64,000 bases of DNA from Cupriavidus phytohabitans. GTDB lineage: Bacteria; Pseudomonadota; Gammaproteobacteria; Burkholderiales; Burkholderiaceae. Positions within the stretch are counted from its first letter, which is position 1, and each line of letters begins with the position of its first letter. Shown one piece after another: positions 20,289 through 22,170 of the stretch. The notes below the pieces were generated by a model, which saw only the letters and a program-made list of their open reading frames with translations, did not search any database and was not told the DNA's origin. The stretch lies in the NCBI RefSeq assembly GCF_000426345.1, contig NZ_AUFE01000028.1:1-64000 (forward strand). Reading direction: 5' to 3'. Position numbers and translations under genes: made by a program.

Positions 20289-20573
20289 AGCGCGGCGGCA
20301 GCGCGCCCGGCCTCATGGCCGCTCGCTCGCGGTTGCCCGCCGGCCCTTGATTTTCCAGTGCTGGCGGGCGATTGTTGTATCCTTTCCCCGGGCTGCGTGA
20401 TAGTCGTTCCCGCCGCCGCCGGCAGTTCTCCTCCCGCAGTTCTCAGGTGGTTTCTCTGCTTTCCTCCCTAACATCTTCATTTCATTAAGGATTCACTTTC
20501 ACGGTGCGTGAGGTGTGCGCGCTAAGTCATTGTTCTGATTCGAAAAATCTCGTTTGCTGCTCTGCAACCAGCC

Positions 20574-20602
20574 TTGACCGCCCAAATTGCTTCCTCTAAA
20601 GT
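20574..20602 (+). promoter_or_regulatory. Predicted sigma70 promoter of the dcw cluster
   Basis: The -35 element TTGACC (20574-20579, 5 of 6 matches) is followed by a 17-base spacer and TAAAGT (20597-20602, 4 of 6). Transcription would start near 20609, inside the MraZ-type repeats, which fits negative control by MraZ. Confidence 0.6.
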
Positions 20603-20636
20603 GGGAAATAGTGTGAGGAAGTGTATTTTTGTGTGA
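20601..20636 (+). promoter_or_regulatory. MraZ-type operator: four GTG-repeats at 10-base period
   Basis: GTGGGA, GTGTGA, GTGTAT and GTGTGA begin at 20601, 20611, 20621 and 20631, exactly one per 10 bases. MraZ of E. coli and other bacteria binds GTGGG-type direct repeats separated by 5 bases, giving the same period. A further GTGGGA occurs at 20652. The first unit overlaps the predicted -10 box, so bound MraZ should block the promoter. Confidence 0.75.
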
Positions 20637-20744
20637 AATTGCGAACCGACCGTGGGATCATTTCGTCACAGTCGGAAACAGAGGGATTCACGCGATTGCC
20701 AGCTGCCAGGGGCCACCGGTAGCAGGCAGGGACCGGGAGCGAGC

Positions 20745-21173
20745 GTGTTTCAGGGAGCATCGGCGCTGTCGCTGGATGCCAAGGGGCGGATGTCCATTCC
20801 GTCCAGGCATCGCGAGGCGCTGCAACAGCAGGCTGAGGGCCGGGTGACGCTGACCAAGCACCCGGATGGCTGCCTGCTGCTGTTTCCGCGGCCCGAGTGG
20901 GAAACCTTCCGCACGCGCATTGCAGCGCTGCCGATGGATGCGCACTGGTGGAAGCGCATCTTCCTGGGCAACGCCGCCGACGTGGAAATGGACGGAGCAG
21001 GCCGGGTGCTGATCGCACCGGAGCTGCGCAGTGCCGCCATGCTCGACAAAGAGGTCATGCTGCTCGGCATGGGCAGTCATTTCGAAGTGTGGGATGCCGC
21101 GACCTACGCCGCCAAGGAACAGCAGGCGATGGCGCAAGGCATGCCCGAAGCATTGAAAAATTTCTCTTTCTGA
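20745..21173 (+). CDS. mraZ: Transcriptional regulator MraZ
   Basis: The 142-residue protein is the DNA-binding autorepressor of the dcw cluster and forms a ring of AbrB-like domains. The two half-domains are visible as [20 protein letters not shown] (about 6-25) and [19 protein letters not shown] (about 80-98). I chose GTG at 20745 because it gives the family N-terminus [15 protein letters not shown]; an upstream ATG at 20652 adds unrelated residues and would lie in the leader. The gene is followed by rsmH after 7 bases. Direct repeats for its own binding lie upstream. Confidence 0.95.
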
Positions 21174-21180
21174 AGAGGTC

Positions 21181-22170
21181 ATGAGTCCTACCGGAACGCC
21201 GGCAACCCCCGCCCTGCGCCATCGCACCGTGCTGCTGGACGAGGCCGTGGACGCCCTGATCTGGCGCCCGGACGGCGTCTACGTGGACGGCACCTTCGGC
21301 AGGGGAGGGCACAGCCGGGCGGTACTGGCCCGGCTGGGGCCAGACGGGGCCCTGGTCGCGTTCGACAAGGACCCAGCAGCAATCGCAGAAGCGGGCACCA
21401 TCGGGGATGCCCGCTTCTCCATTGAGCACGCCAGCTTTGCGGACATGGCAGAGCGCCTGGCCGGGCGCGGCCACGTGGCCGGCGTGCTGCTCGACCTGGG
21501 GATCAGCTCGCCCCAGATCGATGAGGCGGCGAGGGGGTTTTCCTTTCGTTTCGAGGGCCCGCTGGACATGCGCATGGACACCACGCGCGGCATTACCGCC
21601 GCGCAGTGGCTGGCGCAGGCGGATGAGCAGGACATTGCCAGGGTGATACGAGACTATGGGGAAGAACGGTTTGCTGTACAGATTGCAAAGGCGATTGTTG
21701 CTCGCCGGCGCGAACCCGGCGATGGCGGACCCATCGCCACTACTGCCGACCTTGCCGCGCTCGTGGCGAAAGCCGTCAAAACACGCGAGAAGGGCCAGGA
21801 CCCTGCGACCCGCACCTTTCAGGCTCTACGGATTCACGTCAATCAAGAGCTTGAGGACCTCGAAAGAGGTCTGAAGGCGGCTTATGACCTGTTGCAGGTA
21901 GGGGGACGCCTGGTGGTGATCAGCTTCCATTCGCTGGAGGACCGCATCGTCAAGCGGTTCATGGCGGCGCACGCCCGTCCCCAGCAGGATGCCGACCCGG
22001 CCCTGCGCCGCGCGCCGCTGCGCGCGGCCGACCTGCCGCAGCCCACGCTGCGCCTGCTCGGACGCTCCAAGCCCGGCGCCGAAGAGATCGCCGCCAATCC
22101 GCGCGCGCGCTCGGCCGTGATGCGCGTGGCCGAGAAACTGGCTCCGGCCGGCGGAGGCGTGCGCGCATGA
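21181..22170 (+). CDS. rsmH: 16S rRNA (cytosine-1402-N4)-methyltransferase
   Basis: The 329-residue SAM-dependent enzyme methylates C1402 of 16S rRNA in the decoding centre. Motifs are [29 protein letters not shown] (SAM binding), [26 protein letters not shown] and [15 protein letters not shown]. The length is slightly above the E. coli enzyme (313). The middle third uses codons rare in the rest of the window, including ATA, CGA, CTA and AGA, between about 21530 and 21890. Its stop overlaps the ftsL start by 4 bases. Confidence 0.95.

Follow-up and report, generated by a model that had tools for sequence, protein, structure and literature searches.

The best described relative of the promoter analysed here is PmraBc of Burkholderia cenocepacia, which is active in promoter fusions and starts, by 5′-RACE, 100 bp before mraZ (PMC7761207). 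As a single promoter it serves 15 genes of the division and cell-wall (dcw) cluster; it carries four 7-nt repeats with 3-nt spacers, placed downstream of the -10 box and over the start site, and in EMSA MraZ shifts a 250-bp fragment holding these repeats and not a neighbouring fragment (PMC7761207). For the Mollicutes, the MraZ site has been given as AAAGTG[T/G] (Fisunov 2016, as cited in PMC8475190). The direction of MraZ regulation differs between reports: the E. coli protein is a repressor (as cited in PMC7761207), while Neisseria elongata shows the opposite sign, with mraZ deletion lowering and overexpression raising dcw transcripts (PMC9395523). Mycoplasma MraZ has also been reported as an activator (as cited in PMC7761207), unlike the repression that we propose below. 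A literature search pairing mraZ with Cupriavidus returned nothing on Cupriavidus mraZ by title.

Promoter and GTG array of the Cupriavidus phytohabitans dcw operon

The DNA considered is a stretch of 64,000 nucleotides from Cupriavidus phytohabitans (hereafter, the window), in which coq7 lies upstream of the mraZ promoter region and mraZ, then rsmH, lie downstream. The mraZ gene (20745..21173, + strand), whose product would be the regulator recognising the boxes described below, begins with GTG and scores 121 bits against TIGR00242 (cut-off 98); its protein has 42% identity to E. coli MraZ. It is followed by rsmH (mraW; 21181..22170, + strand; TIGR00006), second gene of the dcw operon. Among the best 80 of at least 466 relatives the mraZ start codon is never ATG (TTG in 41, GTG in 39), and start codons as weak as these may keep MraZ scarce.

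Direct reading gives a -35 hexamer TTGACC (20574..20579), a 17-base spacer and a -10 hexamer TAAAGT (20597..20602), followed at a 10-base step by four GTG units, all on the + strand: GTGGGA (box 1, 20601..20606), GTGTGA (box 2, 20611..20616), GTGTAT (box 3, 20621..20626) and GTGTGA (box 4, 20631..20636). The hexamer, spacer and unit positions noted in the first-pass annotation are thereby borne out. Its description of a promoter inside the array has to be redrawn, since the promoter stands beside the array and only box 1 touches the promoter hexamers, the first two bases of the box (GT) being the last two of the -10. A further GTGGGA at 20652 lies 21, not 20, bases past the fourth unit and hence slightly off the 10-base grid. 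A promoter scan of 20300–21000 returned TTGACC-17-TAAAGT as the single promoter, against 0.1 expected; the promoter is known here as a sequence match, and its start would fall at about 20609 if the base equivalent to that of B. cenocepacia is used.

The pattern GTGKRW every 10 bases with at most 2 mismatches, which was drawn up after the array had been seen, matches once in the window and in 0 of 100 dinucleotide shuffles. Bare GTG spacing is not special genome-wide: 6 sites on the two strands carry four GTGs at a 10-base step, and a reversed control pattern also gives 6. Four of the other five matches form two overlapping pairs made up of perfect 10-base tandem repeats and the fifth is unrelated; only the mraZ array among the six sites has, by eye, the AT-rich look of an operator. 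A GTGKG triple pattern has 0 matches in the genome because unit 3 reads GTGTA.

At least three GTG-core direct repeats at a 10-bp step characterise an MraZ operator, and the window has four. It is like B. cenocepacia in placing four repeats at a 10-nt step downstream of the -10 box and over the start site (a predicted one in the window), and the array is an ordinary MraZ binding site, a further case of the type published for that species. Box 1 with the bases before it reads AAAGTGG, comparable to the Mollicute site, and both T and G occur after GTG in the array. The E. coli mraZ promoter, Pmra/mraZ1p, resembles that of the window in carrying GTG boxes that repeat every 10 bp; it differs in having three boxes, the first of them clear of the -10 and 37 bases from where the -35 (TTGACA) begins, against 27 bases in the window. 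Eraso is said to have described GTGGG repeats at this E. coli promoter in 2014. The leaders differ as well, that of E. coli mraZ being 38 nt long (PMC5089854) and that of the window, from its predicted start, about 136 nt.

Conservation was assessed in the best 80 of at least 466 relatives, all of them Burkholderiaceae by title except one named merely as "Burkholderiales bacterium". Each of these 80 closest named loci has TTGACC, a 17-bp spacer and TA[AC]AGT running into GTGGG (TAAAGT in 79, TACAGT in one), and the promoter and boxes 1–3 are present in 80/80, with the reservation for box 1 (GTGGG in 80/80) that loci were searched for TA.AGTGGG. Box 2 reads GTGTGA in 69/80 and another GTGT unit in 11/80. 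A GTG is found at box 3 in 80/80, as GTGTAT in 63 and as GTGTA plus any base in 72; box 4 is GTGTGA in 50/80, another GTG unit in 29/80 and missing from 1/80. The first-pass annotation had read a dcw promoter with MraZ-type repeats and a first unit over the -10, and had suggested a comparison among relatives: the -10/box-1 layout recurs in all 80 named loci and agrees with the EMSA and 5′-RACE results for B. cenocepacia.

Beyond the family, an MraZ match was found in 152 of 160 genomes of the order, and 60 loci over 46 families were taken from the listed part of these 152. Under a strict rule (at least three in-phase GTGs, the first overlapping TA..GT, and a -35 matching at least 4/6), 42/60 loci passed and 18/60 failed, against 0/1200 shuffles passing; a further 40 loci gave 30 passes and 10 failures (72/100 overall). 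The class sample consisted of the 30 best loci of 55 MraZ genomes and one from E. coli, of which 23/31 were analysable (in 4 the start was not found, 3, including E. coli, had no promoter by pattern, and 1 was too short), and at least three boxes were present in 20 of the 23. By eye, boxes 2–4 are mostly GTGG in the order (L083–L142); the window's family has GTGT instead, as do some boxes of families f4, f8 and f44. The arrangement known from B. cenocepacia is shared across the family and, as regards the -10/box-1 overlap, across much of the order, which makes the biochemistry of one species transferable.

Eight genomes of the order gave no MraZ match. In the three that were readable (3/3, two families), there is no GTG-N7-GTG pair on the coding strand within 600 bp before rsmH; among the other 5/8, no rsmH was obtained from three, and a contig edge was reached in two, in one case on an MraZ-like tail (by eye), so that this genome probably has mraZ. 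These sequence comparisons, few in number at 3 genomes, support a joint disappearance of the array and the MraZ protein. An operator conserved with its gene and absent where mraZ is absent is what is found in 80/80 named loci and 3/3 mraZ-less genomes, a small sample. rsmH without an MraZ match or array was seen in G040, G085 (family f40) and G094, and in G094 it directly follows a gatB-like sequence (by eye).

Our main reading, to which we assign a probability of roughly 0.9, is a sigma-70 promoter with a four-box MraZ operator autorepressing the dcw operon, plus a separate element for a second factor. In such a model the TTGACC-17-TAAAGT promoter would fire at about 20609, and an MraZ ring would sit on the four GTG boxes, at their 10-bp step, from the last two -10 bases as far as about +28. 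Once bound, MraZ would stand in the way of open-complex formation and of early transcription, with repression of its own operon as the result, and a second factor would probably occupy the conserved element at 20523–20536, on the same helix face. For C. phytohabitans we infer the start site, MraZ binding and the direction of regulation; repression is the likely outcome because boxes 2–4 cover the first transcribed bases.

The opposite sign, with a ring on the array assisting RNA polymerase at a weak -10, would agree with the N. elongata deletion and overexpression data and with the mycoplasma reports cited above, and the TAAAGT of the window is indeed weaker than the TATAGT common in the order sample. 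We nevertheless regard activation as unlikely, given that boxes 2–4 lie downstream of the predicted start, where a ring should block polymerase, and that E. coli MraZ represses. Still less credit is given to the proposal that the array is a graded, dose-reading operator whose weak units (GTGTAT and the fifth copy) are filled only at high MraZ. The units do vary in sequence, and the fifth copy stands two turns (21 bp) from box 4, with TG there in 57/57 distinct Cupriavidus leaders; however, unit identities are conserved and not drifting across the 80 closest named loci, and a fifth-copy GTG occurs in 27/57 Cupriavidus leaders and 0/55 other named loci. The "degenerate" GTGTAT, which the first-pass annotation had brought forward as an argument for graded binding, loses its force here: kept in 63/80 of these loci, the unit is itself conserved, drift is ruled out as its source, and therefore graded dosage is not implied by degeneracy.

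A conserved element upstream of the promoter

During alignment a conserved stretch, GCTAAGTCATTGTTCT, was spotted at 20521–20536, and it contains the candidate binding site of the second factor in the autorepression model, TAAGTCATTGTTCT (20523..20536, + strand), the 3′ end of which lies 37 bp before the -35 hexamer. The genome has one exact copy of TAAGTCATTGTTCT and, within one mismatch, one other site. Among the closest named loci (best 80 of at least 466), 79/80 carry AAGTCNTTGTTCT 35–38 bp before the -35. Expressed as a 14-base motif, TAAGTCNTTGTYCT, and sought by a rule of at least 10/13 within 80 bp of the -35, the element was detected in 41/55 order loci, against 0/55 on the reverse strand, 0/55 farther upstream and 0/55 downstream. 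With the motif rule unchanged and the promoter finder slightly tightened, 32/39 further order loci had it (0, 0 and 1 of 39 in the controls), for an order total of 73/94 loci versus 1/282 controls; loci without a located promoter (5/60 and 1/40) were left out. For the class sample the motif was first relaxed after the data had been seen, and a rerun under the original rule gave 10/23, with 0/69 in controls (0, 0, 0 of 23). The best motif score in E. coli is 8/13 in 400 bp (locus L249).

As reference point for the distance between element and promoter, the base 23 bp ahead of the -10 was used, which coincides with the -35 if the spacer is 17. The 73 order-locus gaps are solely 15 bp (3 loci), 24–28 bp (65) and 36–37 bp (5). 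Counted by family, 7/7 deviations from the principal gap, among them that of the window's own family, are about one turn away, and two families (f15 and f19) each hold both 15 and 25–26 gaps. Under uniform gaps this phasing has p ~2e-7, with accepted ranges that were set after the data had been seen, and a period of 11 to 11.5, not 10.5 bp, fits best. Class gaps fall at 24–27 or 37–38 in 7/10 loci; outside the phasing are L238 (55), L242 (51) and L247 (4), the promoter of the last being probably mislocated. Helically phased gaps are as expected for a protein on one DNA face upstream of the promoter.

On balance we lean towards a dcw promoter that, in betaproteobacteria and many gammaproteobacteria, is also controlled by a second DNA-binding protein, one specific for TAAGTCNTTGT(C/T) and seated on the same face of the helix; in Cupriavidus a leader hairpin with a nearly invariant TGnGATnAT core would add a further layer. 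If true, this would amount to a dedicated control of cell-division transcription of ancient origin, without a counterpart in E. coli, where the best match is the 8/13 given above. Its conservation, near-uniqueness in the genome and phase relation to the promoter make the element a bait with which the missing dcw regulator can be sought. As to what turns up the division operon, the upstream element matters more than the array. A literature search by literal spellings of the element gave, among the matches listed, no paper on bacterial division by title, which does not prove that the element is unpublished, and the available portion of the B. cenocepacia account mentions neither an upstream TAAGTC element nor a leader hairpin (PMC7761207). 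In that species a 161-bp and a 289-bp promoter fusion were similarly active (PMC7761207). If the 161-bp fusion is without the upstream element, the element would be dispensable in LB at early stationary phase.

Concerning the owner of the element, IHF recognises the consensus WATCAANNNNTTR and its sites carry an A/T tract on one side. The reverse strand of the element reads CAA-N4-TTA, as in this consensus, the logo has an A-rich patch 3′ of the motif on the motif strand, on the side of the IHF A/T tract, and helical phasing would suit a bend. Even so, the main forms have A in place of the T of WATCAA (GACAA or AACAA on the reverse strand), and the N4 keeps NGAC, a conservation that IHF sites do not need. 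We find it improbable that TAAGTCNTTGT(C/T) is an IHF site bending the DNA, and with a partial fit only to its consensus IHF was not retained as owner. NtrX, a Rhodobacter dcw regulator, binds GCA-N9-TGC upstream of mraZ (PMC7240162); this pattern was not seen at 20500–20600 of the window, read by eye only, and NtrX was likewise set aside. Another dcw regulator, CenR, has the site TGA-N8-TGA (PMC9275681).

The fifth copy and predicted hairpins of the Cupriavidus leader

The GTGGGA at 20652–20657, counted as a fifth copy in the first-pass annotation, is present in the window as described, and as a repeat of the array it holds up less well. In 57 distinct Cupriavidus leaders (from 84 sequences, same-genome duplicates included) the core is preceded by G in 27, and GTG is accordingly kept in 27/57. 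What is kept is TGnGATnAT, in 55/57 and always 16 nt past box 4. Neither GTG nor TGnGATnAT occurs at the same offset in the 55 named loci belonging to other genera, of which one lacks bases at that point, and with GTG in 27/57 Cupriavidus leaders and 0/55 other loci a plain conserved MraZ box was discarded.

TGnGATnAT fits a leader hairpin better than an MraZ box. The putative hairpin H1 (20646..20675, + strand; stem CCGAC/GTCGG), proposed from core conservation, arm swaps and pair counts, has the conserved core TGGGATCAT at 20653–20661, which takes in most of the fifth copy. Across 24 divergent Cupriavidus leaders its flanks are highly variable yet tend to remain complementary. When the 5′ arm of one species is joined to the 3′ arm of another, the swaps weaken the fold on average, with z of -3.9 to -5.0 for full arms over 12 split/end choices and of -2.6 once the core is excluded; in 15/24 leaders the native arms rank within the top six of 24. 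Of 18 control windows placed upstream or in mraZ, 17 gave p > 0.02 and one gave p 0.0006. In a sequence-only alignment, both-sided changes are found in 8/8 outer pairs, 66% of cells pair and one inner pair switches between C-G and G-C. The covariation score is above all 500 shuffles and all slid versions, with the caveat, made by the pair-count tool itself, that related sequences may exceed such shuffles without structure. These comparisons make it fairly probable, in our view, that H1 is a real covarying leader hairpin in Cupriavidus.

Alternatively, the region could be a DNA-level feature, either a weak MraZ box or a second -10, with the hairpin signal arising by chance. Its constant distance of 16 nt from box 4 in 57/57 leaders would suit this, as would the RNAalifold result (no consensus structure for the H1 region), the ordinary folding energy of the window leader (z -1.04) and the control window with p 0.0006. 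Kinship alone can exceed shuffles, and in 4/24 leaders (the window, L011, L027 and L187) 15 to 20 of 23 swapped arms beat the native one, 16/23 in the window itself. The arm-swap scores, with and without the core, argue the other way, together with changes on both sides of all 8 outer pairs and a covariation score reached by 0/500 shuffles; we hold the DNA-level explanation to be doubtful.

H1 was not accepted as a family-wide feature. Swap tests were mostly flat in Ralstonia (8 loci, where two splits gave z of -2.2 and -2.7), in Pandoraea (17) and in Paraburkholderia/Burkholderia/Trinickia (25/26, L044 being without an anchor), with L041, L058, L069 and L081 left out. Similarly, when a 30-locus set was searched with the hairpin model R1, its 26 loci from outside Cupriavidus yielded no convincing match. 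Within the genus, R1 has one match below E 0.001 in each of 56/60 genomes, partly by construction since it was trained on 24 leaders of Cupriavidus; nine contain an additional, less significant match (E 0.0016 to 0.09), and 3/4 of the genomes missed are near-complete. An Rfam scan of the leader gave 3 hits, all far below gathering scores.

A structured 5′ leader before mraZ, as predicted here for Cupriavidus, has been described for the dcw cluster of Rhodobacter sphaeroides as UpsM, with a 268-nt leader, a Rho-independent terminator and an sRNA (PMC5089854). Unlike UpsM, the mraZ leader of the window showed no terminator in a scan of 20300–21000. A candidate second leader hairpin, H2, is suggested by the fold of the window leader at 20696..20729 (+ strand), just before the ribosome-binding site. 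RNAalifold gave no consensus hairpin at this position, and arm swaps in the 24 leaders gave z of -5.0 to -5.2 for H2.
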